DNA from: Antedon bifida
Taxonomy: Eukaryota; Echinodermata; Crinoidea; Comatulida; Antedonidae
Reading direction: 5' to 3'
DNA length: 64,000 nucleotides
Assembly: GCA_963402885.1 (NCBI GenBank)
Contig: OY727095.1
Location: 8,623,001 to 8,687,000 of the forward strand
Shown: positions 2,958 through 32,454 of the stretch, one piece after another
Numbering within the stretch: the first letter of the stretch is position 1
How the letters are laid out: each line of letters begins with the position of its first letter
The notes under the pieces: model-generated
What the model saw: the letters and a program-made list of their open reading frames with translations, nothing else
Database searches by the model: none
Told to the model about the DNA's origin: nothing
Translations under genes and position numbers: made by a program

Positions 2958-2963
2958 TTTATT
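2958..2963 (-). promoter_or_regulatory. Polyadenylation signal of peptide gene A
   Basis: AATAAA on the minus strand, 20 nt past the TGA of gene A, which implies a very short 3' UTR. It is seen directly; use in vivo is inferred. Confidence 0.55.
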
Positions 2964-2982: not shown

Positions 2983-4899
2983 TCATGTGGGCTTGCATTG
3001 TGGTCTGACACGAGTTATCGTAAAACCTGGTACCGTCTGCATCGTGACGACACATTTGTAACCTGGGCAGCATTCGGTCAGTCCGGACACCCAGCTTTTT
3101 GGATTGACTGAGCAAAGTCGTCCACTTTTGTCTGTGGCGCATGATGATCCACGAAACTAAAAAAAAAACAACAAAACATAATAATTATAAAAAAGTATCA
3201 TATTAAAGTAATGATTGGCATGGAAGGATTATAGTTTCATTTTAATTATGTGAAGCGTTACGTTGCCAGATCAATAAACGTTTTTACGCGACGTAAATGA
3301 TATTCATAATTGAAAGGGTGGTATTGCCTTTTTGTCTGAAGAAAATACCCGAGTTAGTTTGACTTGATATACCTTTAAAACGTGATATAAACAATGATTA
3401 CTATTTTTTTTATTCTATTTCATCAGTCTCCTGATGTTATATGACATATAACGTATGTAACTTGATAAGACCTTTCATATTTCAACGTATTATAAATGCT
3501 TTTAATTCATTTTTTATATTAAATAATTGTTATCAACCCACGATGTATTGAATATCATATTAAAAACGATTTGTGATTCAACCTTTAAAAATGAAGCTCA
3601 ACCTGTCGACCATCGATGTTTTTTTTATGGAATTGTAATTTTTAACATGTTTAGTTCGATATTGTCGTTAGTTTCCAATTGCAAAAAAATCGTCAATTAT
3701 TATCGTCTAGTTAGACAAAATCGTGATGGTTTAAAGTTATTTACTAAAAGGCTGGTTTTCGAGTGTATAATTTTAAACAAAATCTATTTAAAATGTAGAC
3801 TGTGGAAGTAGGATGATTAATTTATATGGTATTTTTAGTATAATGTTTATAGAGAAATAGGTGGTATACTCATAGGAGTAGGTCAAGAGAGTTTCGCGTA
3901 TACGAGCCTATTACTGAGCCTTAACGATTTCCTAATTAAATAGGCCTACATTTTCAATTTTATATTGTGTATAGACATCAATACTAAATAAATAAATGTC
4001 GTTAACTTTCAGTTTAATTGGTAATTTTGAATTCTCCTTTATCATAAAATTGATCGCCTTATAAAAATTAGTTTATAGATGTTGATTTGACCAATGGGTT
4101 CGAACTAGGCCTATACCGAATTTCTTTAAATTGATATATTAACTATAACGATTAAATTCAGTATAGTTTGATCCCATTAGGCCCTGATCTGAATATTATT
4201 AAGTGAATGTTTTATGTATTGTTCAATTAATAAGTTTTGACATAGGAAGATAATTATGCCCACACATCGGAAATTATGAATTTAAAGTTGGAATCAATAT
4301 GACTATTAGTATTTCCATCTATCACAATTATTATTCATAACACTCGATACATTTCTGAAAATATGCTAAAAATTTTTTGTAAAATAAAAGACTAAAGAAT
4401 TTACGTGTTATTCCTTCGCAGAAATCTATCTTTTAATGTCTTTAATATCCATAACCCATCTGGCTATTTACACAAAAATGATTGCGTAGGCGCAACGCAA
4501 GTGAGTTAACCAATCACAAGCGGCAGTCCGGATGACCCATCGCGTTGTGATTGGCCTGAATGAATTACGATCGGCTTAATGTTGCTCTAATGTGAACCAA
4601 ACATTCCGAAATATTTCGATCAATACATCATTTAAAGGAATATCCCCAATCAACTATAAATACTTCTAAATTGCTTTACCGTACAAAACAGTTCGTCTTC
4701 TGGGGGCTTAGCGTCAGATTATAGACTACAAACTACTTACATTCCCCGTAGATGGTTGCATTAACTTTCGGCTTAGCTTCATCTTGTACCTGTTCCTACG
4801 GTTCGGAGACGACGCTGACTCGCTCACATCCATCATAAGACACAATAACAGTAAACCGGCCATTACAAGTATCGTGCTTTGCTTTATCACCCGATTCAT
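2983..4899 (-). CDS. Secreted six-cysteine knottin-like peptide precursor A (two coding exons)
   Basis: Spliced minus-strand gene. Coding exons are 4741-4899 (53 codons) and 2983-3156 (57 codons plus TGA), with an intron of 1,584 bp, donor GTAAGT and a T-rich acceptor, in phase 0. The 110-residue product starts MNRVIKQST, then has a hydrophobic core (about residues 10-23) with likely cleavage near SES-A, then a basic pro-region containing RR and RK. The second exon carries six cysteines spaced C-x8-C-x13-CC-x4-C-x18-C, including LTECCPGYKC, and ends PQCKPT. This is the inhibitor-cystine-knot framework. I chose the second in-frame ATG because a strong acceptor (a pyrimidine run ending CTCAG) lies 14 nt upstream, so the upstream ATG at 4941 is probably intronic. 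AATAAA follows 20 nt after the stop. A MITE sits in the intron. The function is unknown; it could be a neuropeptide-like, defence or venom-like peptide. The homology to B and C is clear. Confidence 0.85.
4484..4602. mobile_element. MITE family 1, degraded copy in the intron of peptide gene A
   Basis: GCGTAGGCGCAACGCAAGTG, then the CCAATCACAAGC interior and a decayed right end ATGTGAACCAAAC. The outer left terminus is missing. Confidence 0.7.
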
Positions 4900-4913
4900 C
4901 GTTGGATACTGAT

Positions 4914-5639
4914 CTGAGATAAGAAAAGATAATGACTTCATTGATCCAATAATTGGAAAATGCTTTGTTTATGTCATGGACGAAAAAGCAACGGTAAACA
5001 TAAAATGTTTCCTTATTTAGAATATGAGTTGAACAACAAGTAAAAGTGAATAAGATTGCTCAAGAAAAGAACAAGAAACAAGCAAAAATTGATCTTGAAT
5101 GTCACACAGTTTTAAAATAGTCAAAATAGTTAAATAAGTCAATAAAAAAAAAACCCTAAACATGTATTGCCAGGGAAGAGTGGAATTTCATTCTTCCCTG
5201 GTATTGCGGTAAATGTCTGTATCTATCGCCAGTTCACTGCTTTTTCCCCGCGCATATAAAACATTAACATAAGTTAATTGATAGGTCTTTTTCCGTGGGT
5301 CCATAATACAAAATTTGACACAACCCCTTGCACGGATACAACGACCAGCGAATTAATGGCAGGCGCCATTTCCTGATATTAATATATGATATAACAGTGT
5401 TCATTTACTATGTTAATGTTATGAACGTTCGCGAACATTATCTAATACAACATTGAGAATCCATTGTATAACGAATAAAATGTATACTTATTATATTGCT
5501 GCAATCGTACATAGGCTTTCAATTTACTGCAGCGTATGATACAGATCTGATTATAAACTATAAGAGATCTATCATTATCAACTAATGTACCTATGTCAAA
5601 ATAAATCATGAATTTGACATGTATGACAGACGTAACACT
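4914..5639. other. 5' flank of peptide gene A
   Basis: Should contain the upstream non-coding exon and promoter implied by the acceptor at 4914-4915. A TATA-like TTTATATG (minus strand, about 5249) is the only candidate seen and is weak. Confidence 0.4.
5170..5201. repeat. Short palindromic motif (CCAGGGAAGA family)
   Basis: CCAGGGAAGAGTG, a short spacer containing AATTTC, then CATTCTTCCCTGG. Similar paired motifs occur at 17885-17918 and 44424-44457, and degraded ones at 8223-8262 and about 47150. Confidence 0.65.
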
Positions 5640-6256
5640 ATATCAACACTATAAGGACGACGTATACATTATTATCAATCATGTTAAGGTTAAAACCGGT
5701 TATTATCTACTGCTAATTACAAATCTCTAATGTGTATATTATGTTGTACGATAATTTCGGCTTAAACATGACAAATAAAGATTAATAAAATCAGATTTTG
5801 AATAGGCAATTTCACAGTTTTAATAAAATTATTCACTTCTTTAGAAAAAAAAATCATAAAAAATAATTATTTCACTTATAAAAAGACAAAAGAAATGGTT
5901 TCAACCAAAAACCATTGTCTTCCAGACAATTTAGGTATATTTTGCTTTAAATTACATTTTTTTAGGGGAAAATGTTTTTTCTTTGATTAAGTTTTTGGTC
6001 AAAGTGAATAACTTTTATGTGATATTAAAATGGCATATTCAACAAAAAAAAAGGAAAAAATTATTTTTTTAGGGGGACAATATATCTTTAAAGGACCCGT
6101 TTTTACTACTGTTATAATAACAACTTCTGGATGACGTATGCAATAATTGATATCAATCATTGTATATAGTTTCATAATGGTTGTTATCTGGTATTAATTG
6201 CAAACCTTTAATGTATATTGTTAAGATATATCACAATAACTTCGGCTTAAAGGACC
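5640..6256. repeat. Diverged tandem duplication interrupted by a TTAA-flanked MITE
   Basis: Segments at about 5650-5768 and 6125-6250 are homologous: both read GA(T/C)GACGTAT(A/G)CA, later ATTACAAA/ATTGCAAACC, and end TTCGGCTTAAA. The first is split after CGGCTTAA by MITE family 3. The second is unsplit and reads CGGCTTAAAGGACCC, which is effectively the empty target site. Confidence 0.7.
5762..6091 (+). mobile_element. MITE family 3 (TTAA type), copy 1
   Basis: Matches the copy at 24452 over most of its length (ATAAAGATTA, CAACCAAAAA, GCTTTAAATTACA, CATATTCAACAAAAA, GGGGGACAATATATCTTTAA). The left terminal repeat is missing about 18 bp. It is flanked by TTAA on both sides. Confidence 0.75.
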
Positions 6257-6576
6257 CATTTCACTATATTAGCAACACTTCGCTGTTTAATTACAAATAT
6301 GTATTTACTGTATTATGTTGTATCATGTTGATTTAGGATTTAATGGCCCATTTTTATTATATACTTTAATAGTACACAGCCGTTAGTAGCCTATCGCGTG
6401 TGCATGAACCAGGGGTCTTGTGGTTTTATATGCTTTCGCCGCCGCCGTATCACTAATTACGCACGTATACCCATGCTATACTATTGTGATATTCTATCGT
6501 CGTCTAAATCGTCTGATACTACAGAAACGTACAGGTTTCCTTATAATCAAAGACTATGTTAACTCAAATTACTCAT

Positions 6577-6710
6577 CCTTGGTCCCCACTTGGACGCAAC
6601 GCAAGCGCAACGCATTTGATTTGACCAATCACGACACGATAGATGTTGATCCATCTCGTCTTGAATGGTCAAATTAATTGCGTCGAGCTTCGTCCTTGCG
6701 TTGCGTCCTA
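6577..6710. mobile_element. MITE family 1, copy 4
   Basis: Begins CCTTGGTCCCCACTTGGACG and ends CCTTGCGTTGCGTCCTA, with the outer part of the right terminus lost. The interior keeps the GACCAATCAC / TGGTCAAAT pair. Confidence 0.75.
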
Positions 6711-8274
6711 AATTTAAAATGTTACATTCCATTAACCAATAAACAAAAAACTAGAAAGATAACCAAATTAATTGAAAACGACAATCCTAAATCCAGTCCA
6801 AAATAATGCAATAATAAAAAGATAAAGAGTTCACTTACGTTTATGTAAATATGTACAGAGTAACGTCTTTTAACAAGGATAATAATAATCGATGGTTTTC
6901 CTATGTCTTACAGTATCGTTGACCTGTAGTATGATTCAGTCCGCCGTACAGACATGAAATGAATCTAACTACTTACTTGCTCGTATATTTATACTTATAT
7001 CGAAGTGGAAATTTCGTGCCCTGGACAAGTTTGAAATCAACTTCGACGAACTTAGATAATCCGAGCCTGAGTAGACAGTAATCCCACCGGCTCCTTGCAC
7101 AATTTGATTACCTCACAACTAAGATTGCAAATTCATCACCTCATTGGTCAGTCCTTTAAATATGACGGGATATTTTTTTCCCGTAAGCTCAAGGCCAATC
7201 CGTCATACGGGTATGAAAACGGCTATTATTGTTGGAAATGATTACTTTTAATATCTACTACAACAAATCACATGATCATTTTACATGCTAAGTGGGCGTT
7301 ACCAAATTACGAATTAATAATTTACTATTAGTAATAGTATATTTCACTGTTTTATGTAATAATTTATTATATAAAAAGTATAAATCAAAAGACAAATTAA
7401 CTGACAGAATAATGATAAAAGTAAACTGAAAAAAAAATGTATTATTTTTAATTATGTTATTCCTACTACAGGTTATATAAATTATACCTGTGATAATATT
7501 GTTATCAAATTCAAAACATACAGCTCACGACTGTTAATTCGAACCTTTCGCGAGAACCAAATGGTCATTCCTAGTGTAGGCCTACCACTTTAAAAAAATC
7601 TTTTTGTGGCATGTACCACCTTTATTCAATTTCATTCAACATTAGAATATCAACAATAATAATAACAATAACAAGTAATCAGATTGTGCTTTATACAATT
7701 ATTCTATAACCATTTACTCATTTATTAATATTAATCAGAATCATTTTTAAAAATTGTTTTTAAAAGTTATAATTATATATGGTGTGTAAATAAGTAGGCA
7801 TACATACAGGCCAACATAAACATGTGTGTAAACACGAACTGTACATGTCCGCATGTAACCATGGACTGTACATCATGCACGCATACACACATCTCCATAC
7901 ATTTATTATAATTATTATATATAATGTACTATTGATTTGAGTTATTTTTATCTTACAAGGTTTAAATAGATCATTACTTTAAATGCACATACGTTGCTCA
8001 AAAGGGATTGCTAGGTTTAGAGTAACTCACTATATACCTAGAGTGTACATAGTACAACTATGTAAAATATATAAAACAATTATCCATTAACAAACATTTA
8101 TTGTCGTATTTATCTTTATCGTTTCTATACTGTGTAAGTGTATGTAATGTCACAAACATGTAATAAACCAACAGTAAATACAAAACCCTCTTTGAATATC
8201 TATTCACTTCAGTATGTTTGAACCAGGGAAGGGTGAACTTACAATGTGTAATTTCACTCTTTGAACACACTATT
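6711..8274. other. Non-coding, nothing recognised
   Basis: AT-rich sequence between a MITE and a minisatellite. A degraded CCAGGGAAGGGTG palindromic motif lies at 8223-8262. Confidence 0.55.
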
Positions 8275-8396
8275 CATTGCACATACGACCATCCTCTCAG
8301 TGCACAACTGCCAGCCCCTATTCAGTGCACATACGACCAGCCCCTCAGTGCACAACTGCCAGCCCCTATTCAGTGCACATACGACTACCCCTATTA
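8275..8396. repeat. Minisatellite, 48-bp unit made of two half-units
   Basis: Alternating half-units CAGTGCACATACGACCAGCC(CCT) and CAGTGCACAACTGCCAGCCC(CTATT), about 2.5 copies. The short ORFs on both strands here are consequences of the repeat. Confidence 0.8.
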
Positions 8397-11040
8397 AGAA
8401 GACACCTTGTTGGCTCAGACGGCGATTTTGGTGTAGATGACCAACAGAGAGAATTGCCATTTTATGCATGATTATTAATCATTAAAACCATGTTCATATT
8501 ACAAATTCTGGATTTACATTCTAATTGCTGGGATTATATATACTAATTAATTAATCATCATCTTCATCATCTCGACAGTATAATCATAATTCACGTCATT
8601 TCAATTTCAATGACAATAATGGGGCCTGGGAAACCAAATCAGTACAGGTTAATATTATCATCAATGTTGAAAAGGAAAAATTAAACGAATTATCAATTAA
8701 AATGTTATTAAATCCACCTTATGACCAGAGGTAAACTTTTAGCTTACGTCACTGATTAGTACATGTTAGTTGTGTATAAATACACTTTAATCCAACTATT
8801 TCCTAAATAATATTGTGCGCAACTATTTTTGTAACCTTTTTGATAATAATAATTATTATTTTAAAGATATCGCTTAAAGATAACTTATATTCATCACTTA
8901 ACAAGCTGAGAGATAGTGTGAACATCTCGTTTGATGATCCTCGTGCATTTCTAAGATACTGACGAACTTACAGCCATTGACACTCAATATTCCCTTGATT
9001 GGAATTAATTTACGGTTGCGTCATCATTCATATCAAAGAAATTCTTAAATTAATGATCTTTAATGCTAACAGGACCCTCGGGGTCACGAAGAAGATCACG
9101 TGGATTAATAGGGCATTTATAACCCAATAAGATCTCTAATTTTATAAGATTGTTTCAATATGTTTGACGCACACAAGCGAGCAAACTTTCTTCTGCAGGA
9201 TACAATAATTCTTTAAATAGAGAATAAGAATAGAAATTCATTTGATCAAAAGTGAAAACTGATCTAACTCACTATATTTTTGTTTTGGCTTAAGTGAACA
9301 GCACATGCGTATGTAAATAAAAAAAAACATTCGATAAACTTTGCCAAAAAACTAAAACTAGGTTTCTATGCTTTTGTTTTTTGAAATCAGTAAAGTTTGA
9401 ATTCAATGTTGCATGCGAGCATTGGGAAATTCTTTAATCTTCGATCAATTCTTTAATTTCCTCCTCAACATTGGTTTTTTTTTATATTAAGGAATGTATT
9501 ATGCAATAACAAGTAGTCTTTTCAAGAGGTATTTTACCCTGCTTAAACTTCTATTGCATTATGTTAAATTACCGTGTTTTTAATTATTCACTGAATGAAT
9601 GATAAAATAAGTGTAACTTAGTTAAATAGTTTTAAATTAAAATGTCATCACAGAGCAGTACATAATGACATGAAAAAACTATTAAAGTGAAATAATTATT
9701 AAAACTACAAAATAAATCCGAATTCGCACCTTTAATTTACCTACAAGTTTTATATCAGAGTTCTGTTGAGAATAATATGATGTAAGGAAATGCATGCTTT
9801 ATGTTGTATTTAGGAGAAGAAAAAAACAACTGACATAGAAGTAGTCGTATTTGGCCTAGATATTCTTTACAGTGTTATAGTTACTCCTCCCTGGATAGCT
9901 AATTAACAACAAAGTTGTTTAGATAAGGTTAATTGGGTCAAGTTCGCATAGCCTATATTAAACGTATTGATGGCGAATAGGCCCTACTAGTGTATATTAT
10001 AATTAATTGAACTTCAAAATTGCCCTACGAAGCAGGCAGAATAACGAAAGTTACTTATTGATAATATTATTAGGCTAATTTAATCATTTTAACCATTATC
10101 CCATGGCTCCTAAAATTATTATACAATTTCTTTAAAATATAATTTGTAGATTAATAGCGCCACCAACGGTTAAATTATTATTTATTGCGTTCACAAAAAA
10201 ACGAATGAATAAATCATATTTGAAATAGGCCTAAATTGTTTTTCTTTATGTTGTGTGTCTTCTGAATGATGCTCCATAACATTTCTTTTCCCAAAGGAAC
10301 TAAAATCTAAAATTGTTCTGTACTGGCTGCAAGGGTCGGAATAATTGTATCAGTCGTAATATCACTGTACCTTTTGAAATGATCTAAAAATAAAGTAAGT
10401 ATTAAGCGGCGCGGTGCTGGTACATGATTGTAAACAACATCATATGTTCATGATAGTTTTAAATATATAGCCCTACTTATGGAAACTCTTTTTTTAAACG
10501 ACTTTGAAAGGATAATTTTTATTTTTCCAAATACGCAAATTACCTCATCAAAAGTAACAGACTAAAACACATATTTTTCAAAATGCTGATCTATGAGAAG
10601 GAACATTGCAAAGTATTCATATTATTGTTTGGTATGACAAACTATCAATTGCAACACATTTATGTCCTTTTCAACTCTTTATTGATTGTAAACATTTATT
10701 TCTGCATTCGGAACATTGATGACACAATACAGTATACACTTTATAATTTAAAAGTAAAGATCAACAACCTTACTTTACATTAAGCCTGAACTCATTTGTT
10801 TGGTATAAGTAAATTAGCTGAAGATATTGCAGTCTCGAGGCACCACCATGGGCACTGTGGTAAATAATGTCCTCAGTGTTGGTAGGCCTACAATAGTAGT
10901 TACGAAGCAGCATATATGTTTTCCTATTTGTTCTGCTCTTTCTAATAAGATAATTAGTTATCAAATGTGTCCAACATAAAATGGTATGAAGTTTAGAGTA
11001 CGATAATTGATAAATTTTAAATTCATTGAGATCAGTCTAT
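8397..11040. other. Non-coding, nothing recognised
   Basis: No gene, RNA or transposon recognised. Short AT-rich frames only. Confidence 0.55.
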
Positions 11041-11122
11041 TTTTATATCTAAAAATTGTAATCAAAATATGGGAAGCGCTTTGATCAACTTGGAAAAGCA
11101 ATTATTATTATTATTATTATTA
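11041..11122 (+). mobile_element. 3' tail of an old LINE or SINE with (ATT)n end
   Basis: GGGAAGCGCTTTGATCAACT followed by GGAAAAGC and (ATT)n. GCGCT-plus-ATT-repeat tails are typical of CR1/L2-type 3' ends. Related tails occur at about 14876 (GCGCTATATAAATCCAGG, ATTATTATT) and 49037 (GCGCTATATAAATG). No coding part is visible. Confidence 0.45.
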
Positions 11123-11202
11123 AATATTGTCTGATTTGCTTAGTAACTGAAAAAGTTTCTGTAATGTAGCTCTTGTGACAAAAATAAGCTTTCGCTTTAA
11201 TT

Positions 11203-11328
11203 AACAAGGCCAACAGCCATTAAGTCGCGTGCTACAATGCATAGTGATACCGGACCGACAGACCGACAGACCGACCGACCGACCGACCGACATAGTGAAC
11301 TATAGAGTCGCGTCCACGCGACTAAAAA
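11203..11328 (-). mobile_element. TCGG-microsatellite element, copy 1
   Basis: Reading the minus strand: TTTTTAGTCGCGTGGACGCG hairpin, ACTCTATAGTTCACTATG, a TCGG/TCTG tetranucleotide run, GGTATCACTATGCATAG, then CACGCGACTTAATGGC and GGCCTTGTT. The same architecture occurs four times in the window. The class is unknown. Confidence 0.75.
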
Positions 11329-13793
11329 TTGTCCCCAACGAAGTCCTACATCTTGCGTTTCAGGCTGTTTGCACGATTGGATTAGGATGAATTACACAAG
11401 ATCATGATTAATTTAAAATTATATTTGGCACGTAATGTTTGTTGAAAAGCACGTAACGCGTGTGCGCAATCCAGTCTTGATTTTTCTAAACTCTAATTTA
11501 TTTTACGATTTCAAATTTGCGACTGGTAATCATTAAAAGAAATTTAAATCTTTAAAATCTTTATCGGCTTAGAGTTTAGATCTTGGATTTACGCCAACTC
11601 ACTTAAAAACATAATTATTATTAACTTGTTTATTTGTCGGGTATTTTAGGCATACATTAGATTATCGGGTAAAACATTCTGATTTAGCACGCAGCAGTAG
11701 AAACCATAAACGAAAACCGCGCTCACTCAACCAACTGGCTTTGTATAACGTCACAAACTTTCACACACAAAAATGACTAAGAATTAATTTTAAATTACAA
11801 TCATTTCACTAAAACACTGTAGTATAACAATCATGACAATGCTAATAACAATAAGACTTATAACAAAACAACTTGTGTTTACCTGTTCTGTTTACTGTCT
11901 TGTTATCTAATTGTCATCTTGGGATTTTAACCTATTAATTAACACTAATTATTTGCTTTAATTAAAAGCACACATCCAGTTTTAATTCGTTTTTACTTAG
12001 TCTCCTATACAAAATTACTATTGTATCCTTTAAGTCTGTCCATTAACACAAGTTGTTATGCGTTTCGGAAACAAGTTGGACTTGTTGAGAAAGGGAAGGG
12101 AACTTATTTGATCCATTGGGACAAAAGTTGGGAATCCAGCCTAATCCACAGTGGAAACAAACAGCAGACTTTAGTAACAGGGATTGTGCAAGTTATGCAG
12201 TACCTGGCTGTGATCCAATCCAACGGCTGTCAATCAATCGAGTTCTTGATCATGGTTTCCTATTAGGACAATTATATTATGAAGTGTTACACAAATAACA
12301 AAATGAACTATTTCATATTGTAATATTGTTGATCAGCAAAACAATATAGATACACCAATGTAGAAAATGCACTGTCAATGTCTAAAATTAGAAAATGCGC
12401 TTAAATACAGTACCAAGCTAATTTGGCGCGCTAAGCTGTCTTGTTCTTTTATTCTCGAAATAGAGGTATCTCAGTTTTAAATAGAGATATTTAGTTGAGA
12501 GATTAAATTGAGAGATTAAATTTTTTACAAATGATCAATGTAACCATTTACCGATATCTATCTAGTACCGTACTATATATAATTTAGGGATTTATCACTT
12601 CCACGAAGCTTTAGTGTATTGTTCTTCTGGAGGTGCAATCTCTATTTAGACAGCACCTTTTATAGAGATAAACAAAAAGATCATAAGTCGTAACCAAATA
12701 TTGAGAGAATGAGTTTTTTGTCAAACTTAAGGCGCATTATATTTCATGCGTTTGCATTAAGCAATTCGAATTCAGATGCAAGAAACACAAAAGAAGATTT
12801 GCCGATATTGATAGAGAATGCAAGAAGCGTGTGCTAGAAAGGAAAAAACCTTACTTGAGGAATGAGAGAAAAATAGGAATGAATTTAAAAATTTCCTAGA
12901 AAGATTAGGCATTGGCCTAAAAAATAATAAATATCTGAGAGGGAACAAAGTGTGCTCATGTTTACTGCTAAATCACACCTCATCCCTTCAGTGAATCATT
13001 AATGTAGGACGATGCTTATTGATATTACATATCTGATCTAAACCCTTCAGAATGAGCAATTGAAATTGTATTATACTGCTTGTCATTTCAGAAGGACAAT
13101 TGGTATACTTTATACCGGCAATCAGTGGTTATATTACGCTATCTCACTCTTGTACGAGTAAGACCAATCATTCTCTTTACGTTCGGTAAAGTCGAGTTAG
13201 TATGTCGTTCGGTTATTGTCTTTAATGAAGAATGTTCAAGGAAATTATTGACACATTTATAAAGCAAAATTACTGGTAGTTTGTCAGTCTGTCCATCAGT
13301 ATGTTATTGGTCGGCTTGTGTTCATATGGTCGTGTTACAGCGCTAAGGTCTGAGGTAAATTAGTAATACAAATTTTAATCCTCTCTATAGTGTCACAATC
13401 CTTATCTTCATAATTATTATTCTCATCATAACGTATTCGTGTCATCATGGTTTTAACAAAATAATCTCTAGATATAAAAATATCGAAATATCACTGTTCA
13501 ATACATCAAAATAATTTATTCGGACCAATAAAATTTACTGTATTTACATTATACAAAATGTACACACTATGTACAAGTATATAAATTATAACTTTGGCAT
13601 AACAAAGCAAAACATAACAATACCATTTTTACATTAAAATAATGTTTACGTTACTTAATTTAGTTGAACTGAAGTGGTGCTGTTTGTTTTACCTCATTAT
13701 ACATTTGTAACGCGTTTATGTATTTAAAAACGTGATGGCGCTGAAGAGAAATATAGGCCTAACTAGTGCATGAATTGTAAAGCATTTTGAAAG
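11329..13793. other. Non-coding 3' flank of peptide gene B
   Basis: Overlapping frames of 60-81 codons at 12021-12298 have no recognisable features. Otherwise AT-rich. Confidence 0.55.
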
Positions 13794-13799
13794 TTTATT
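13794..13799 (-). promoter_or_regulatory. Polyadenylation signal of peptide gene B
   Basis: AATAAA on the minus strand, about 50 nt beyond the stop codon of gene B. It is seen directly; use is inferred. Confidence 0.5.
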
Positions 13800-13849
13800 C
13801 TATAATAATTTAGATAAATAAAGTTATTGATGAAGAATAGATAACTGTT

Positions 13850-15809
13850 TTATACTCGTTTGCAAACTGGCGTTGGTTTAAACTGAGATAAATTGTTAAT
13901 TTTCTTGATGACGTAAACGCATTTGAAACCTGAGCAACACTCGGAAAGATTCTGAAGCCACCCTCGTCCACCCATCCCGCAAGCTTGAGTGTCTTTATCT
14001 GTTAAACAGGATTTCTGTGGAGGAAGAAATTTAGAATTAGTTATAAAAATATATACATAGATTTTTGGAAAGTATGCCTCATGAACCAGTGACGCATAGG
14101 CCTAAACACAAATGCTGCGCGCCGACAAAAATACATCTATTATTTATCTATTTTCATAGCGAGTGCAATGTTTTTTCATACAGACATAACTGTTAAAAGG
14201 AATAAAAGAAAATCTTCGAAAGAAATTGATACCAACATTCTATATACTGTAATGCCAGAACGACTCTTTATATTTTCAAAGACTTGACTTGCATAATACA
14301 AAACAAACATGATTGGATCATTGGAATACATTAATACATTGTATTATATTACTAATAACATAATGATTGTCAACATTATGTATGTTTTGATTACATTTCA
14401 ACGTATTTCATTTCAATTACAGCATTCGATTGAAACATAGTAATGCATCTTTTATTATAGCGAAATGATTGTTCTCATAAACGATTTTGTTTCAGTTTAG
14501 AATTACAGATAAAACCGGGCATGCAATTATCATATCCTTCGACCAACATTACACTGAAGTACACGAATCAACTGTTTCTTTTAATATAGGTGTAGACCTA
14601 AGTCGCGAAACCCTCTGAAATAATTGTCTGATCATACGAAAGAAATCTATAGAAAACTAATTCTTCGGCTATCCACTGTAGAAATTTAAAATCAAGTAGT
14701 CGATAAATCATAAAGCAAGTAGTTCTATAAATCACAAATAAGATCGTAGGAAATGTCCTATTTGAACGGTACGGTCAAAGATAGCAAAGCAGAAACCAGA
14801 CAAATATACGTTTTGTGTCTGGATATTTTGTAACATCAATCTTGTTTACCGTATTTTTAGAGGTTTCACAACATTAGGCGCTATATAAATCCAGGATATT
14901 ATTATTATTTTTAATGGGGTATATATTGGAAACTAAACTAATACACTTTTTTTGTATTTAAACATATTTATTTTATAGTAGGCTACATGACTTGAGTATA
15001 GTAATCTTGTCTCATTAACATGCAATCCTAACGCAGAAAATGTAATGAACTTATTGGCTAAATACTTGTAACTAAATACACACTTGTAAAAGATCCGTTA
15101 AAGCAGTATCTAAAGACCATTAGTTTATCGTTATTATATCCAGGTCAGGATTTTCTATATAGATTATGCCTAAACTAAGGTCTAACGTAAGATGATTAGT
15201 TTATAGGCATCAAGAGAGAATTGGCAAACACGAGATAACCACTACAGCACGCGTAATTTATGACGTAATGTAATTACGCATTCTGTATTGCATAAATTGT
15301 ATTGAATTTGTAAAATTACTTTGACCGGACAAAATTAAGTCGGGAGTATAATTGAAATTCTTTTCTCTATTGGAGTTAAATACAACTCTTTAATCGGTTT
15401 AACGTGTACTGCGTTCAGATTGAAACAATTCGGAGTTGTATCGGACGAACATCGGGCTAATTATATCGGAGAGGGTTCGGACTAATTATAAATGGAGTTA
15501 GTGCCACTGAGGTATATAAGAGAGCACGTCTGATTTAATTATGATTATTTTGTCTTAACTTTAGTGCGTGTGAACGGACCTTAAGATTTAATCAACATTT
15601 TCTTAAATTAAGGCATTAATTAAAACATTGGTACGTACCCGTGAACCAATTCCCGACGCCTTCCAACTGTTTCTTGTGTTCGGCGCTCTGCCTTTTCCGA
15701 ACCCCCTTGATCTTTGCTTAGCCGCCTCAGAAGGAGATAGAAGAACAGATAAAAGTGTTGCGACTAAACAAACTGTTATCACATATCGTGTTGTACAGGT
15801 AACTGCCAT
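13850..15809 (-). CDS. Secreted six-cysteine knottin-like peptide precursor B (two coding exons)
   Basis: Spliced minus-strand gene. Coding exons are 15639-15809 (57 codons) and 13850-14014 (54 codons plus TAA), with an intron of 1,624 bp, donor GTACGT and acceptor CCTCCACAG, in phase 0. The 111-residue product has an N-terminal hydrophobic stretch (VITVCLVATLLSVLL) ending SPSEA-A, the likely signal-peptidase site. A strongly basic, glycine-rich pro-region follows. Exon 2 has cysteines spaced C-x8-C-x13-CC-x4-C-x18-C, identical to gene A, with WLQNLSECCSGFKCV and a terminal TPVCKRV. Over the cysteine module about one third of residues match A. The start is supported by an acceptor (TTTATTTCTAG) 16 nt before the ATG, so the in-frame ATG at 15845 is probably not used. 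AATAAA (13794-13799) lies about 50 nt past the stop. The role is unknown; secretion and disulfide folding are inferred. Confidence 0.85.
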
Positions 15810-15825
15810 TTTAAGAATTTTAAAT

Positions 15826-16442
15826 CTAGAAATAAAGCAAAACATAAATATAAAGACAGATTACATTAATATATTACGGTACAAAATAGAGTTACTAGAG
15901 CATTGGTTTAAATATCACAGTGAAGACATCAGAGAAAATCTTAGCGGCGCTTAAAAAAAATAACTGCGCTTTTAGCTGAACCAAATGAATTTAACCAATT
16001 TCCTATCTTAAAAAAAGCGCGCATGTGTAATTTGTTGCAATGGGCAAAAGCCCTAACCAATTACAACAATAATTATTATTCAATTCTTCAACTTTCTTAC
16101 CAAGATTTTGTAGTTTTGCCAAAACAGCAACGGAGCTTCCTCACAAGTTGTTTAGTTTTCAACGGACCTGGCAGCGCTTGCTCTGTAGGGTGAACTGTGA
16201 CTAACAAGAGGAATACTATAGATCTTATATATGTTGCGGAGGTTGTAAGGCTAATTATCAAGTCATATTAACCACCAATAGGAAGGCTTGAGCTGTTGAG
16301 GCTTATTGTAACAGTATTAAGCGAGAGTTAATGCCAAAAGAATCCTCGGGGATTATGACCAAGTTAATCCATTCGCTTCTCGCTGCAGCTCGCACATTTA
16401 AAAATTTTAACAAAGTTTATATACTTTACATAAAATTAAACG
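15826..16442. other. 5' flank of peptide gene B
   Basis: Expected to hold the promoter and upstream non-coding exon of gene B. Nothing definite is seen. The plus-strand 108-codon frame at 15628-15954 is largely antisense to the signal-peptide exon. Confidence 0.4.
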
Positions 16443-21995: not shown

Positions 21996-22140
21996 TTTTT
22001 AGTCGCGTGGACGCGACTCTATAGTTCACTATGTCGGTCGGTCTGTCGGTCTGTCGGTCTGTCGGTCTGTCGGTCTGTCTGTCGGTCCGGTATCACTATG
22101 CATAGCACGCGACTTAATGGCTGTTGGCCTTGTTTTATCC
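21996..22140 (+). mobile_element. TCGG-microsatellite element, copy 2
   Basis: TTTTTAGTCGCGTGGACGCG, GTTCACTATG, a run of GTCGGTCT repeats, GGTATCACTATGCATAGCAC, GCGACTTAATGGCTGTTGGC. Nearly identical in plan to copy 1 in the opposite orientation. Open frames across it come from the tetranucleotide run. Confidence 0.78.
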
Positions 22141-22995: not shown

Positions 22996-23307
22996 TTAAA
23001 GATATATTGACCACCTGAATTTTTTTTTTACATTTTTTGTTGTTGAATATGCCATTTTTACGTCACATAATAGTTATCCATTTTGAACAAAAATTGAATC
23101 TAAAACAAAATTATTTGCCTGAAATAATTGTAATTTAAATTGGCTGCCAGTCAGTGGGTTTTTGGTTAAATTTGACAATTTATTTTGTCATTTTATTACG
23201 TTTATTACGGAAGGGATTAACTTTATTAAAACTACAAAATAACCTATTCAAATTCTGATTTAATTAATCTTCATTTTTCATGTTTTTGGGGGACAATCAT
23301 CTTTAAG
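22996..23307 (-). mobile_element. MITE family 3, copy 2 (inverted)
   Basis: Reverse orientation relative to the other two copies, bounded by TTAAAGATATATTG and GGGGGACAATCATCTTTAA. The interior contains the complement of the TTGCTTTAAATTACAG and GGCAGCCAATTT blocks. TTAA is present at both borders. Confidence 0.78.
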
Positions 23308-24451
23308 GTGGATATTTATTCCATGTTATTTAATTATAAATTGAATACAATCAACATCTCGGTTTCATACAAATTTCTTTTATTGCATATTTCTTTTTGC
23401 GAAAAATGTATCTGTCACTATTAATTATTATTTAGTATGTTAACAAATTATAATTATTTTAATTAAGTCGAGCGATTGACACATATTTAGCATTCATATG
23501 ATATTTACGTGTAATCACATAATGACGGATTATTGTCTGTTAGCCGATATTGGTCGATAACTGATATACAAACAAAGTCTAAATCTATTCATCTGATAAT
23601 GGATTCCTACCAAGTGTACTGCAGTACAAATTATTATAGAAATAGATGCAATAAATCAGTTTACCGTAAAACCTTATATTTTCGCGGACCATAATTGTTT
23701 GTAATTCGAAAAAAATGTAGGCCTACAGTATTTTTCTATAAAAGATACGATAAATCACAAAATTATAATTGGTCTTTATTTTGTGAGCTCTGAATTTTCG
23801 CTATCAATTTTTACATTATTTGCAAAGATAGCAGAGTTAAGAATCCGCGAAAATTAATAGCGTTATAAATGCCACTGAACTGAATCAGGAAAGTTAATAC
23901 AATCGTCGCTGTTTGAGTTAATTGCGCTCATGCATTGATAACGATGCTCTCAAGTGGATATTTATATTAGTCTAATAGTCTTTCCATTTGTACCAATAAA
24001 TTTAATAACAATATTATATAAACAGCAATTTTATAATGACCACCTGTGTGCACATGTGATGATTTTATTCCGTGATGTGACCTGCAGTTAATTGCTCGGC
24101 GATGTTTTACATTGAAAACATTACGTGGTATTTATCAACCGCCTGAGTCGGACCTGACTGCGCAAAAATGTAAAGGCACGCACTGATTTGAAATAGCCAT
24201 TAAGAATGATTATATAATATGTTGATCGATGATAGAGTATTCAAAATAAAGATGATAAGAAATAAGACTTCGAAAGGAAATCTGCCCTATGATATGCAAA
24301 CATAAAAAAAACTAATTTAACATTTGAAAAAAGATAATTAGCAGTTTGTATATTTATCTTAACGTGCGCTTAATGCTGCTTGCCAAGCTCACGTCAATTG
24401 TACTGTATTTACCATGTTTAATCACTCGCGATATTATTATGTAATGTATTT
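23308..24451. other. Non-coding, nothing recognised
   Basis: AT-rich sequence between two inverted copies of MITE family 3. Confidence 0.55.
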
Positions 24452-24778
24452 TTAAAGATGTATTGTTCTCAAAAACATGAAAAATAAAGATTATTAAAAA
24501 TAGATTATTTTGTAGTTTTAATAAAGTTAATCACTTACATAAAAACAAAAATAATAATAATGTTTTCACTTATAAAATAACATAATAAATGGTTAAATTC
24601 AACCAAAAATCCAGTAGCTGGCAGCCAATTTGATTATTTTTTGCTTTAAATTACAGTTTTTTCAGGTTTAGATTCAATTTTTGGTCAAAGTGTGTAACTA
24701 GTATGTGACATTAAAATAGCATATTCAACAAAAACATTTAAAAAAATTACTTTTTCAGGGGAACAATATATCTTTAAG
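24452..24778 (+). mobile_element. MITE family 3, copy 3
   Basis: The most complete copy: TTAAAGATGTATTGTTCTC at the left, GGGGAACAATATATCTTTAA at the right. The TTAA borders and inverted termini resemble piggyBac-type target use. There is no coding capacity. Confidence 0.8.
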
Positions 24779-25018
24779 AACATGTGTGTAAACGTACATG
24801 TATTCCCTTTAAACAATAACCGGTAACATCAAAATGAACTGTTTTTAAGTATTACATTTTTTGTAGGCACTTTCAGAACAAGCTCTGCTTTTTGAAAACA
24901 GTGCCTCCTTCATTTACGTTGTAAGAAAATAAATTTATGAATGAAGGAAATAAAATGTTATTTTGATTGATTGATTGTGTACCGAGAATTACAAAACGTA
25001 TGATAAACATTATGGAAA

Positions 25019-25261
25019 CGTAGTGGAGTTGTGGTGGTTATGATAATTAGCTACCAATCTAAGGATCCTGGGTTCAAGTCCTATGTCAGGATTTTTTCTA
25101 ATGACAATTTACAACTCCACTCCCAAAGACTTGTAATAAGACTTTGTTTATGTAGAGTATCTTGTGTATGGGGTTGCCACCTTTAAGAAGGATAGTGAGT
25201 GAATTCACTTATGGTTATCCTTGGCAATTTACCTAAATATATAAAAGAAAAGAAAGAAAAT
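25019..25261 (+). mobile_element. tRNA-derived SINE, copy 1
   Basis: The 5' part is tRNA-like: TGGTGGTTATGA (A-box region) and GGTTCAAGTCC at 25071-25081 (B box, close to the GGTTCGANTCC consensus). The body AAAGACTTGTAATAAGACTT, TAGAGTATCTTGTGTAT and TATCCTTGG...TTTACCTAAAT is shared with the copy at 48206. The 3' end is A/AAAG-rich. It would be transcribed by RNA polymerase III and mobilised by a LINE. Confidence 0.8.
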
Positions 25262-25748
25262 GAATAATAATATAGGGATTTATATTTCATACAGAAATTG
25301 CCATACTACTTTTTAATACGGATATCACCTTAACAAGTGACTTTTTTTCTTTTTTATTTCAACGCACATCCAACCGCGAGAAACTCGCCAATTACAGGAT
25401 GGATAAACTATTTTATAATTATAACTTATTGTAATTTATATAAATACAAACATACCGTAGACTCCCACAAGTATATAAATATGTAGGTCGTTAGAAATAG
25501 AAACACTATATATGATTTTAACAAATTATAGGATTAACCGAAATAGGTACGGCATACAGAAAAATATATAAGAATATAATTTTACATAAAAAAATGAAAT
25601 TCATGATGAAATGTGATACAGTAGAATTCCTATTAAAGGGTGTCTGAAGCCAAACAAAGTATCCTCTTTTAATATAGTGGACCAAGTGTGAACACATGTT
25701 TCCCCTCGATCGCTTCACAGGAAAGTGTTGCCTTAAAAATTGTTCTTT

Positions 25749-25898
25749 TAGCCTTGTTTACACAATCAAAATTTATGTGACAAAAAATGTGATGTGCCCA
25801 TATACGGAAACGATGATGTCATATCACTACCATATTTGGGAATATCACTACCATATTTGGTACTTTTTATCAAACTTGATAGTGTAGACAGAGCTTTA
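25749..25898. mobile_element. MITE family 2, copy a
   Basis: Right terminus TTGATAGTGTAGACAGAGCT; left terminus is a diverged version. The interior has TGTGATGTGCCCATATA and duplicated ATCACTACCATATTTGG, the hallmark of this family of about 150 bp. Confidence 0.8.
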
Positions 25899-27307
25899 CT
25901 GACTGCAGTGTCCAGTATTTGAAAATAGACAATTTTAGGTGTGGTGGAGAATCAGTTATTAACTTGGACAGTTTCCAAAAGAAATATTATTCCCAAATCA
26001 AATTAAAAGAGATTTTAGTTAAATTGAACTCCGGCACCCCATTGCCGGCGGTCAGACAAAAAACTAGACCAGGCCAATGAGACCTGACCTAAATGTCCAG
26101 GAAGCTTCCGATGATTTCTTTAACTCTATTACTTTATTATCCTAGTTATAGGAACTTATATATATTGGCGGAAAATTATTTGTTACTTTCATTTAAAAAT
26201 TGCCAAATTGAAACATTTACTTTCTGTTGTTTAACCATTTTATCGTTGAGCCAACCAACTTAAAGGGAAAGTTATTTGAATCGTTTATAATCCAGGTTGA
26301 GTAATCACGGACCTGGAATGACGGATTTTTAAGTCCGAGAAGACTTAGCCTACAAAATGATCTGGACAGCTTTTACGATTACTAAAGCGATTCCATGTGA
26401 TTTGCTAATACCAAAATGGAAGTTAAGCTTTTTGAGTATTATATCACAGGTCGGTTCCCAGCTCCCGTAGCTATGTTGAAGTGTTAGGCACGTGGTGGCT
26501 TTAGCTACCGTACACTCATACTGAGTCCGGTGGCTGGATAAAACATCGTGAACAATCGTGTTTAAAAATAGAACCGCGCACAACGAACGCATTCCGTATT
26601 CCGTACAAAATATACGTGTGTGATCGAAAAGTTTTCTCTGACAACGTGACCGAATCCGGGTTCAATGCGGACGTAAGTTTCAAGAAAATATTCAATAATT
26701 TTAAATTTGAAACCTCCCATATTAAGAGGAGTATCCTAACCATTGCTACTGTTGTTTAGCCTTCCGTTCCTCATCCAAGTATTTCCTACAACTACAAACA
26801 ACTTTTTTACGATGAGAGATCCGGTGATTTTTCTCAAATGGGAAACGACTAATACCATTAGAGAATACCATTTAATTAACTTAACAAACAACAATAATTG
26901 AGGAAATCAACTTGAATTAAGTTTGTGATATGAGTTAGTTGCTTGTTTATCTTTCACTAAACGCGAAACGTAAGTTGACATATTGATTGAATTAGACCTC
27001 TGTTCACACCATAATAATTTAAACATGAAATACCATGAAAGGCGATAAATGAATTTGGCTGGTGTGTCCCGTGCGTAATTCAATTTCGACGCCGTGCCTA
27101 TGCATTATTACACGGCACATTGTTGCTGTAAATGTTGACAGAATATTATGTCGTCATTAGTGTAAATAATAGGCTATATTGGTTGAACACGCTTACACAT
27201 TCATATGGAGTAGTGGGGGTGAAATAAAGAACCTTGTTCGACGTTTGTGACTTATCCTGTCTTAGTTACGTTAAATACACGTCCAGTTTTGGTTCATTAC
27301 GCGTAAT
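25899..27307. other. Non-coding, nothing certain
   Basis: Minus-strand frames at 26350-26592 and 26516-26743 were considered and not accepted; otherwise featureless. Confidence 0.5.
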
Positions 27308-27462
27308 GCTTGGTTCCCACTAGAGACGCAACACAAGGACGTAACGCAACGTAAGTGACTTGACCAATCACATGTGATGGATTATCCGAACTGTCGCTTG
27401 CCATTGGTCAACACGCTTGCGTTGCGTTTAAATCTTTGCGTTGCGTCCTAGTGGGAACCAAA
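27308..27462. mobile_element. MITE family 1, copy 5 (well preserved)
   Basis: Full-length copy of about 155 bp with both termini intact (GCTTGGTTCCCACTAG... and ...CTAGTGGGAACCAAAC), so it is relatively young. It can serve as a reference for the family. Confidence 0.87.
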
Positions 27463-30400
27463 CTTAAGAACGAAAATGAGGTTCCCGAATCAAAAGTTTT
27501 TGGGTGAACCTGTCTTATGAATAAAACATACAGATTTCGATTTAATGTTGATATTATGATGATAAGATTATATCAATAGACCCATTGCAGTCGGATTACT
27601 TTATTGTGTTTGCGTGTTTACATAATATGTTGGAGCATAACTCGTTTGTAGACTCTTTACAATCAGCGTTAATTATTAACGCTATACGACGGTGTTAAAA
27701 AGACATCTATAGGCACGTTCGGCGTGCCAGGCATTGCTGTTCTGTAGTTCCGAAATCGTGCTAATATCATAATTACTATACTTAACAACCGTCTCATAAT
27801 ATAATCACCATTCTGAACTTGGAACATATTCTGTCGTTGTATTCAGATAATAATAAATATAGGCTCACGTAAATAAAGGTGAATATGTGATAAAACAGGC
27901 GGCAAACAGCATATGGCAACATAGTTGGTCCTATTGATATAATGAATATAGAGGCACATGTTTTCAGACATTTGTATGCTTTGATGTTTCCGTCACTGCA
28001 ATTACAAGAATGTTGTTGAAGTTAAATATCATATTTCCATGAGCAAACTGATATTGCTGACGTATGTAGCTAATTAAAAATATAGTTTTATTAGATAATA
28101 AATATAATGTTTGATTCATTTAAACATTACGGGCGCCTTAAAAAGACAGATTATATAATCTTGATTTTCTTTTCTTTCTGATCAGAAACAAGTTCGTAAG
28201 AATGTCCGATTCCTTCTGCACCAATGCCATGTATACATTTTTCTGTCAAACAGCTTACATTTCAGTATCCACATGTATCCGTGGGTGGGTACCATTTTTT
28301 AATGGTGGGGGTGTAGTAGGTGGGGGAGCGCTATTGTGGAATCCTGATATGAGTGTCCGCAGACTTTTTAAAGATTATGATAATCTCTGGAAGGACCGAG
28401 AGTTCTTAAATGGTAAAGGCCTATATCTGAACGATACATTGGTTATTGATATAGGCCAAGTATAGTTGTAGTACCGAGACAGGTGATAGAAATGGGTACC
28501 GGTATGTAAAAAGTACTGGGAAGGAAAATCAGACTCGTTTGTGCGGGAGGAGTGGCGTACCCCGACAAACATACACACTTAGTGGAGTCTGGCCCAAACG
28601 CTAAAGAAATGGAGATGGGCACCACGGCCGTTAGCATTAGCTTAGGTTTCTACTTTACCTTTACCTTTACCTTACAGAGACAGTGCATGCAGATATTGTT
28701 TCTGGAAATAGAAACAGCGACAGAAAGGCGACATCGCGTTATATACCGCTGTCGTAGGTTATATACAGTGATGAATAAAGTATATGGTTAAAAGTATAGC
28801 TACTGTATATCTGATTAAAATACGTTAAAATGTATAAATAGCAGACAACCATGTCACAATGAATAAAGTATTTTTTTAACATTGAAAGTGAACTCGGCTA
28901 CCTACTATATCATCAGTGTGAAATACAAGACAATTTGTTTTCAAGAAAAATCTAGATTGGAAAATTTAACAAGCAGATCTAAAATTGGCCAAAAGTATGC
29001 CTATACATTTAATTGTCGTAATGGTAATTTTGATCTGCCTGAACATTTATCACGTCTACTAATACGAGCCTGTAAGTCCCAATCGATCATTGGTTGGCGT
29101 TGGTGGAAAACTGCACGTGAAACCCCAATTACGCGTTAAGAACGCACAAATTAGGCATGAATGGAAGGCAGCCATCCTTTAGCAATCTCAAACGAAGATG
29201 TGTGAATCTGGATCTGCCGAAATACATCAATTATCGCTAACACCGCGTCATTGCTAATGCCATGCTTATGATGACCTGATGCATAACCCACGGCTTAAAT
29301 TTACGCGATCGTTATTAAGATAATCCTTCTCTTACGTGACGTTATTAGTATAATCCATCCCTTTTGTATAAGGATTTCCGGTCGACTTTGACCGATGATG
29401 ATGACAATTTATTTACTCCACTTGAATCTGCTCCTCGCCCTCAGTAGTATCAGCAGACGTCATACATTCCTTTAAGCTGACCCGATTTGACATTATTTAT
29501 AAAAATGGGCAAGAGAGTTATATTATAATCCTTTGGCATCGTCTACAGCCAACAAAAAATTAACGAAATTGATATAATGCGCGCCTGTGACGTCATAGTG
29601 ACGATTCACACTGACTGTAGAATCTTAAAGTTTAAGTCGTTTTTTCTAAGGTTAGGTATCTGAGTGCAGATCAGTCATTCTCTAACCTTTATAAGGTAAA
29701 ATATAAATGTGTGCATATTGCTTGTAAATGACAAATATTCTTTGAATATTCTGTGACATCCAGCGGTAAAGTAAATTAATCATCATTTTAATCAGTTGTC
29801 AAATAACTGATTGATGCGGTAGTGTTTTTAAAGTGATTATCAGACGATTTACATTCAAAGCCAAAATTGATTATTATTATTATTGATTATACTTCGAATC
29901 TGATTTTATCGAAAGTCGATAATAATTATATTGATCATTGAAGAGTTTTCTTTATAAGTTTAAGAATTTGTTTTGCATATTAGTAAAGAATTGAAAGGGA
30001 ATCGTTAATGATATTAATATGCCCCTCTTAATATACATACACCTGTTTTTTTTAAATAAATATTATTGAGAGAAATAAACGTTAATTTGAATGGTTGATT
30101 GATTGCAATGAACAAAAAAACTTTTCTTGTTTCTAAATCTCTAATTTCAAATATGTAAGCCAAGTAACAAATAAGTTTAAATGTATCTTTAATCACATAC
30201 AATAATATCATCAATATTACATAACACTATTATATAGATAATTTTAACTTATTAACGTATGGAATATAAATACTATGTATAGATCTATAGTTATTCGTAA
30301 TTATAGAAATATCAATCTAATCATCTAAATATGATTATATTTAAATATTATAACGCTACAATCGTTTTCTTTATCGAACAAAATAAATGTATCAACAAGG

Positions 30401-30610
30401 CACGACATATAATTTATATAACACTAGTAAGAAACCAAAATATACAAAGTAACATTATGTTATATTAGTTACGGTAAGTTGCGCCTGCGCATTGGCACAG
30501 TAATCATACAAATATCCGTACTATCAATTACGAAGATTGGAGATATTGGTTTTTTTTCTTAAAATCAAGTGAATTTCTAGAAGAAACCTTCTGGGTTTAA
30601 AGCAAGAACT
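27463..30610. other. Gene-poor stretch with one exon-like segment
   Basis: A plus-strand segment 28946-29071 is bounded by a possible acceptor (TTTGTTTTCAAG) and a consensus donor (GTAAGT) and is open. The plus-strand frame at 28202-28465 is unsupported. The remainder is AT-rich. Confidence 0.45.
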
Positions 30611-30761
30611 AAAGCTCTGTCTACACTGTCAAATGTTTACAAAAAAGTGTGATGTACCCAAATATGGTAGTGATATACCTAAATCAGGTAGTGATATGAC
30701 ATCATCATCATGCCTGTATATGGGCTCGTCACATAAAGTTTGATAGTGTAGACAGAGCCTA
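30611..30761. mobile_element. MITE family 2, copy b
   Basis: AAAGCTCTGTCTACACTGTC at the left, AGTTTGATAGTGTAGACAGA at the right, CCCAAATATGGTAGTGATAT inside. Complete. Confidence 0.85.
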
Positions 30762-31665
30762 AGTTTAGAACAATGGGGCAACTATGATTTTAATTTACCT
30801 GAAGCTTGAATGATATACTAAAATTCTTAAAAAAATTAATTAATTGTTAAGATTTATACCATAACACGAACTTTGGTTCGAAGATATTAACGATTGATTT
30901 TTGTTTCTCAATCAGAGATGGACACTTTGGGTGTCTGGAACATGGCTTTGTGCTCCTCGTCTTTCTTTTTTAGGTAATATTTTTTGCAAAGACGGCAGAT
31001 TTCATTGCGTTATATACAAACAGTATCCTACAATACCTACACCATGAAGGAAATAATTTAATATATTTCCTCCAGGCTTACACCGTACTTTTATTGTCAT
31101 TGTTCTTTTCTCAAATGTAGATCTCATGATGTTTCATTTTAGTATAAAACTTGAGCAGAAAATGTTGTCGGCCTTCATTCAACTGATTTCATTTTCAACG
31201 CTGTTGTCATATCCGAAAGGTTTGCCTTTTATTACGCTCACTTGGAAGGGTTAGTGTTACCCGCGAAGCTCTGCAAAATTTCTTTCTGGCAGTTTTCCTT
31301 TATTGTTTTGAGTTTGATTTAGCTTGTTGCTTATTTTATTAGTATCTGCATTGAGATCCAACCACCGATACCCACATCATTGTCATTTGCCCTTTGATAA
31401 ATTAATAAATAATGAGTTTCTATAATATAAATTATCCATCACAAATTGTTTTAAGGCGATTGGACTAATGTACAGCCAAGACACACGATATCAGTTTTGA
31501 TTTGTTAAATGAGATTCATATATGATACAAAACAAAATAAAATGGTCTCTTCGTGCTGTTCTTTCAGTATGTTTGAGTTTGTTCTCAAGATTTTAAATAT
31601 AGCCTAGATAAATATGAAAACCACCTAGAAATGTAACAGTAGCATTGTAGTACGATGACACATTA

Positions 31666-32443
31666 TCAACCTTGCTTGCGGTTGAACCGAAACTTTCGCC
31701 TTGATTGCGGTGCCGATGAGTGTCGACACTTCGGTACTATTCGGTATCCCGAGTGTGTATTTCGTGATTTTTGAAGTACGTTGACACATCTGTAGCCGGG
31801 ACAACATTCCGGTAAACCTTGTAACCAACCGTGTACTGCTGTCCCGCACGCGGTGAATGTTTGCTCTGTGCCGCAGTCTGGGTTCTGTTAAAAGAAGAAA
31901 TAATGTAAAAACAACATTTAACGATTATTTGGTTATTATTTTTGCTATTTTTATCGAATTCCAAATTAATTTAATCATACATGAACTAACTGCCCTTGGT
32001 GCGTTCTATATTTGTCATTTCGGCAATAGCGCACCTGTATGTGTGTATGTTCGATCATGGTAGGAAATTTGTGAAATGTGCATTGTTAATAATATAATAT
32101 GAAATTGGTTATTGGTTATAAATGGTTCGGTCCGGTTTTCTAGTTGTATTTTTTTAGTCGCGTGCAAACGCGACTCTACAGTTCACTATGTCGGTCGGTC
32201 GGTTGGTCGGTAAACACTAACTCAAATTTGAACACGCGACTGCAGCCATGTATACCGGTATGGCCTTGTTTCATGTCTGGTTGGCGCTGTGTGGGATTGG
32301 AAAATGTAATAACCATTAATGCTTACCTTAAATATGGAAGTCTTGCGTTGTGGTTCGTTGCTTCTAGTTCGCGCGTCTATCGTTGTCAAGAGTCCTAGCA
32401 ACAAGAACATTACTAATAATTCGATGTATGTTGAACATCCCAT
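31666..32443 (-). CDS. Secreted six-cysteine knottin-like peptide precursor C (two coding exons)
   Basis: Spliced minus-strand gene. Coding exons are 32327-32443 (39 codons) and 31666-31884 (72 codons plus TGA), with an intron of 442 bp, donor GTAAGC and acceptor TTCTTTTAACAG, in phase 0. The 111-residue product starts MGCSTYIE, then has a hydrophobic core LLVMFLLLGLL and likely cleavage after TIDA. The pro-region is short (about 15 residues). The cysteine module is C-x8-C-x13-CC-x4-C-x19-C, with WLQGLPECCPGYRCV and VPKCR. It differs from A and B in carrying a 19-residue basic tail after the last cysteine, with SRRK and NRK sites that proprotein convertases could cut. The start is supported by an acceptor (TTTTTAACAG) 11 nt upstream of the ATG. 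A TCGG-microsatellite element fills about a third of the intron. The only AATAAA seen downstream is distant (31335-31340). The function is unknown. Confidence 0.83.
32150..32275 (+). mobile_element. TCGG-microsatellite element, copy 3, in the intron of peptide gene C
   Basis: TTTTTTTAGTCGCGTGCAAA, CGCGACTCTACAGTTCACTA, TCGG run, ACACTAACTCAAATTTGAAC, ACGCGACTGCAGCCATG, GGCCTTGTTT. Belongs to a second subfamily shared with copy 4. It ends about 50 bp short of the exon-1 donor of gene C. Confidence 0.75.
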
Positions 32444-32454
32444 ATTTTCAGAAT

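Follow-up and report, generated by a model that had tools for sequence, protein, structure and literature searches.

We identified in the feather star Antedon bifida three genes for secreted, knottin-like peptides, which form a family that is apparently undescribed. The genes, referred to as A, B and C, lie within a 64,000-nucleotide stretch of DNA (the window; contig OY727095.1, positions 8,623,001 to 8,687,000 of assembly GCA_963402885.1). Each contains an exon for a predicted signal peptide and a last exon encoding six cysteines, and sequence reading placed all three on the minus strand, at the coordinates proposed in an earlier note on this DNA. A literature search, which did not extend to subscription papers or supplements, revealed no described family of this kind and no paper linking Antedon with knottins. 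The evidence presented below leaves us in little doubt that A, B and C are real secreted-peptide genes.

In gene A, coding exon 1 (4741..4899; recovered in the whole-genome search as L030) contains the ATG and encodes a putative signal peptide and a basic pro-region (53 residues). It is separated by a 1584-nt intron (3157..4740) from coding exon 2 (2983..3156), which encodes the cysteine module C-x8-C-x13-CC-x4-C-x18-C followed by the stop codon. Gene B has the same organization: coding exon 1 (15639..15809; genome match L005) encodes a putative signal peptide and a basic, Gly/Arg-rich pro-region (57 residues), the intron (14015..15638) is 1624 nt long and coding exon 2 (13850..14014) encodes a module with identical spacing and the stop. 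In gene C, coding exon 1 (32327..32443, 39 residues) encodes a putative signal peptide with a short basic pro-region, the intron (31885..32326) is only 442 nt long and coding exon 2 (31666..31884) encodes the module C-x8-C-x13-CC-x4-C-x19-C, a basic C-terminal tail and the stop. All three introns have GT-AG borders and are in phase 0, and the products are 110 (A), 111 (B) and 111 (C) residues long. Coding exon 1 opens in each gene with a strongly hydrophobic segment, whose best 12-residue hydropathy is 3.11 in A and 2.87 in both B and C. With the signal cleavage sites that we assumed, the peptides would have net charges of +13, +14 and +13, respectively, with a pI >10. Aligning the three products showed the invariant residues C-x-T, W, L, E-C-C-x-G, C-V and P-x-C; both these positions and the spacing, including the extra residue in C, had been correctly described in the earlier note.

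Each ATG is preceded on the minus strand by a candidate 3' splice site, found at 4900..4935 in A (AG ending at 4914), 15810..15848 in B (AG ending at 15826) and 32444..32477 in C (AG ending at 32455), which would leave 14, 16 and 11 nt of 5' untranslated region (5'UTR) before the start codon. The acceptor tracts contain 13, 12 and 10 pyrimidines out of 15 positions, respectively. An acceptor at least equal to the weakest of the three precedes 202 of the 2502 ATGs in the window, versus all three genes; simple arithmetic gives a probability of about 0.0005 for this outcome if the sites are independent. A non-coding first exon is therefore likely upstream of A, B and C, as a candidate whose position was not located. 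The description of these genes as two-exon genes holds for their coding parts but probably omits this 5'UTR exon. Downstream, AATAAA motifs on the same strand are possible polyadenylation signals of A (2958..2963, 20 nt past the stop) and B (13794..13799, 51 nt past the stop); the nearest one to gene C lies 326 nt past its stop.

Translated in all six frames, the window contained the cysteine spacing pattern three times, in its strict or loose form, and none of 200 first-order Markov resamples contained it. When modules were compared with the cysteines fixed, the z scores were 8.0 (A and B), 7.1 (A and C) and 8.7 (B and C), and the score of each pair exceeded those of all 2000 shuffles. By contrast, coding exon 1 sequences aligned no better than chance (z = 1.1, 0.4 and -0.3), 293, 652 and 1200 of 2000 shuffles reaching the observed score for the three pairs, whereas coding exon 2 sequences run alongside gave z = 7.7, 7.5 and 9.1. 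Conservation among the three genes, as read from their sequences, is thus confined to the cysteine module. Since exon 1 cannot be aligned beyond chance, the paralogy rests on the cysteine exon, on an intron that immediately precedes it at the same position in each gene, and on the genes being clustered on one strand. These data support the assignment of A, B and C as three predicted secreted six-cysteine paralogues.

A profile built from A, B and C was run against 5.8 billion proteins. Among 113 candidates, one matched with E ≤ 10: P0001, an 'uncharacterized protein' of 110 residues from Antedon mediterranea, whose record gives no function or domain. P0001 is a clear counterpart of gene B in another species. 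The match extends along the whole of B and takes in the residues flanking the exon junction, so that an independent annotation contains the same splice model. The cysteine modules of the two proteins are 98% identical; differences were found at 8 of 57 positions in exon 1 versus 1 of 54 in exon 2 (Fisher p = 0.032, in a comparison of two species and one gene). Searching the same proteins with the module of C returned no candidate, and the module of A returned one candidate but none with E ≤ 10. Counterparts of A and C therefore did not appear in these searches, which require shared 5-residue words and can miss distant crinoid or echinoderm relatives. The proposal that the family is lineage-restricted agrees with Antedon mediterranea being the only outside source of a relative, within what a word-based search can detect. 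The related proposal that such genes are easily missed by gene finders does not apply to B, whose counterpart was annotated, but is consistent with the results for A and C.

That only B has an annotated counterpart would also be expected if the genes were prediction artefacts or decaying paralogues. This explanation is very improbable: the open exons, the phase-0 GT-AG sites, the cysteine framework and the W, E, G, V and P positions are intact in all three genes, the pattern was absent from the resamples and the B counterpart is conserved in a second species.

Further copies were sought in the whole assembly (315,563,634 bases in 27 contigs) using the module of C, full-length B and full-length A as queries, exon 1 of C being left out. 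No further family locus was found by these queries, apart from one weak match each for B and A. The match to B, on C9, had an E value of 5.78 and two stops, and no cysteine framework was noticed in its DNA; the match to A, on C7 (E = 2.88, 25%), was also taken as chance. Since this search scores the best candidates only, very divergent members may remain. No extra copy turned up in the 100 kb flanking each side of the window, and a profile search of the 264-kb neighbourhood yielded only A, B and C, the next-best score being 10.8 bits (E = 0.16). Members A, B and C score between 95 and 114 bits. The motif E-CC-x-G-[YF]-x-C-V matched the genome three times, at A, B and C, and its reversed control had no match. 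The shorter motif CCPG[YF] gave 68 matches versus 34 in the reversed control. Setting A and C aside left 66 matches, and the 65 stretches that span them were examined for the cysteine framework and the profile score. None was judged to be a family member. The top profile score (L098, 15.1 bits, E = 5.6e-5 in a tiny set) came from a stretch without the framework, and three stretches (L050, L055 and L096) displayed the loose six-cysteine pattern through one low-complexity repeat and were rejected. This repeat frame, rich in Cys, Trp, Ala and Gly and found through the motif CCPGY, is present at three places in the genome. The same list included three near-identical tandem frames about 4 kb apart (L041, L042 and L043; C1, ~29.98 Mb), with CCPGYVDTDMTSHKGTKTPDEGA common to all. 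We take these frames to resemble the C-terminal part of a short-chain dehydrogenase, and hence to represent a local triplication.

In agreement with the earlier note, which had recognised no named family, no Pfam or NCBIfam family reached its curated cut-off for these peptides. The best Pfam match was Atracotoxin (Delta-atracotoxin, PF05353) for B, with 16.3 bits (E = 0.01) against a gathering cut-off of 25 bits; the same family matched P0001 with 16.0 bits (E = 0.013) and was unlisted for A and C. Other matches below the cut-off were DUF4933 (E = 0.098), CBM_1 (E = 0.15) and DUF2516 (E = 0.18), and the best NCBIfam match was the CCPGW family (E = 0.23). Comparison with PDB sequences returned a zinc finger (E = 0.14) and an FKBP (E = 1.6) for C, two theraphotoxins (E = 0.9 and 1) for A, Magi-4 (E = 0.2), LuxQ (E = 0.25) and two theraphotoxins (E = 1.5 and 1.9) for the A-B-C profile, and a viral capsid protein (E = 0.12), crotoxin chain A (E = 0.35) and Magi-4 (E = 0.65) for P0001. 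We attributed all these matches to chance or to convergence on the CC-x-G-x-x-C stretch.

All three modules have six cysteines in the order C-C-CC-C-C with Cys3 and Cys4 adjacent, as in inhibitor cystine knot (ICK) peptides, or knottins, a class defined by the pairing I-IV, II-V and III-VI, in which one disulfide threads the ring closed by the other two. The predicted models of B and C contain a beta-hairpin carrying Cys5 and Cys6 (strands 30-39/44-53 in B and 31-39/47-55 in C; moderate to low confidence). The framework and the models make a knottin-like fold probable. Several results qualify this assignment. The structural comparison of both models gave ICK matches only at low scores, and plain Foldseek detected no significant structural match. 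Loop b has 13 residues in all three modules, outside the usual range of 2-7 residues, which is reported for 90% of known knottins and is not a defining rule (PMC10138031). Loop e, with 18-19 residues, is also long, and no sequence homology to ICK peptides exceeded a cut-off. The ICK assignment made in the earlier note is consistent with the framework and, at low structural scores, with both models, and the atypical loop b leads us to call the peptides knottin-like rather than proven knottins. The long loops could also belong to a disulfide-directed hairpin or a colipase/Dickkopf-like arrangement; Dickkopf, Argos and J-atracotoxin-Hv1c are among the low-score structural rows, and the sea-star peptide KASH2 is described with a disulfide-directed hairpin fold (PMC11891777). 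Such a fold is nevertheless unlikely, as an ICK peptide tops the rows of both models, at a low score but with all 39 of its residues aligned.

The best-known cystine-knot-like peptides come from the venoms of arthropods and molluscs. A channel-acting deterrent or venom-type knottin, directed against predators or parasites, would account for the weak sequence matches being mostly to spider peptides (Atracotoxin for B and Magi-4 for the profile) and for the several channel-blocking ICK peptides among the structural rows. However, the Atracotoxin match remained below its cut-off, the family comprises three loci only, and we know of no venom apparatus in crinoids. Neither 'crinoid' nor 'feather star' occurs in a review of venoms (PMC4280546). 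In addition, the mussel CRP-I knottins are described as having a conserved signal peptide and pro-region and a variable mature peptide under positive selection (PMC10138031), and the Antedon family shows the opposite pattern, with an unalignable exon 1 and a conserved module. We consider a venom-type role quite improbable. Similarly to the Antedon genes, CRP-I genes are reported to encode a signal peptide and a basic precursor, with the cysteine module in the last exon and a cationic charge on average, and their short exon 1 contains 5'UTR only, like the exon predicted for A, B and C; unlike them, they have KR/RR sites and short loops (PMC10138031).

We tentatively propose that this small cluster of three old paralogues, in Antedon or a close crinoid, produces secreted peptides that are strongly cationic and probably cross-linked by three disulfides. 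Coding exon 1 would provide the signal peptide and the basic pro-region, and coding exon 2 a module of 54-72 residues consisting of a knottin-like core and the C-terminal hairpin. Once expressed, the peptide would enter the secretory pathway, be oxidised there and then be released, most likely to act as an extracellular host-defence effector whose basic face binds microbial surfaces or membranes; a role as an endogenous ligand would be only slightly less likely. The explanation as a whole, a secreted knottin-like peptide serving host defence, has in our judgement slightly less than an even chance of being correct, and the defence function taken alone is possible rather than probable. Defence is favoured by the cationic charge, the clustering and an echinoderm precedent, the sea-urchin strongylocins, which are likewise described as cationic peptides with six cysteines, a signal peptide and a pro-sequence, and a mature mass of 5.6-5.8 kDa (PMC4805251, PMC2866484).

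The peptides could instead be endogenous extracellular ligands, or secreted blockers of a host receptor, channel or protease, with the task divided among the paralogues. The module of B is almost invariant between the two species, and the non-cysteine residues T, W, L, E, G, V and P are kept in all paralogues, as would be expected with a fixed binding partner. We read the conservation of the module, alongside a variable exon 1, as pointing to a fixed partner or surface rather than to an arms-race arsenal. Regulators are also present among the low-score structural rows (Argos, Dickkopf/Wnt-related and IGF-binding protein domains). One mussel knottin with a comparable gene organization is moreover reported to lack antibacterial activity but to show some toxicity towards cells and larvae (PMC10138031), which calls for caution in assuming an antibacterial action. 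On the other hand, the structural matches to regulators are at noise-level Z, and no canonical KR or RR lies directly before the cysteine module in B or C: the dibasic sites preceding it are RK in B (57-58) and C (33-34) and one RR in A (34-35). Only the product of C has the C-terminal Gly that often serves for amidation in neuropeptide precursors. A survey of crinoid neuropeptides lists unassigned precursors giving peptides with 2, 4 or 8 cysteines and a six-cysteine orexin-type peptide of 36 residues; none of these has the present framework, and its main-text section on other precursors, supplements excluded, describes nothing similar (PMC9793003). A ligand role is possible but somewhat doubtful, and the evidence on defence versus endogenous signalling is nearly balanced.

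Other elements were found in and around the window. A 413-residue open frame on the plus strand (62640-63881) contains a reverse-transcriptase zinc-binding domain (zf-RVT, E = 5.8e-7) and is a retrotransposon remnant; another open frame that begins in the same way is present about 9 kb past the window end. A 45/93-bp minisatellite (57634-58896) contains 27.5 copies of the 45-bp unit, and its repeated peptide recurs on the other strand in an open frame about 67 kb past the window end. A 158-bp unit is repeated 2.5 times at 54583-54975. Two inverted 116-nt arms (792-907 and 1063-1178), 87% complementary, resemble a miniature transposable element; another copy is present at a distance of 26 kb (27353-27467).

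Crinoids are sister to all other living echinoderms, and the family described here adds unstudied secreted peptides to a poorly annotated class. The sea-star peptides KARTESH (KASH2) and CHUPA are likewise described as echinoderm-restricted, secreted and disulfide-rich, with an ICK-related hairpin fold; they have four cysteines, an acidic pro-region and convertase sites (PMC11891777), versus six cysteines and a basic pro-region in the Antedon family. The authors judged the KASH2 hairpin to be probably convergent with the arachnid fold, which bears on how the ICK fold evolved (PMC11891777). It is conceivable, if rather unlikely, that A, B and C belong to a cystine-knot family that arose in deuterostomes, is confined to crinoids and has unusually long loops. 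Its members would be conserved endogenous extracellular ligands rather than venoms or antimicrobials, and the ICK fold would then have originated independently here, beside the sea-star hairpin. A constrained six-cysteine family in crinoids provides a testable case for the evolution of this fold.

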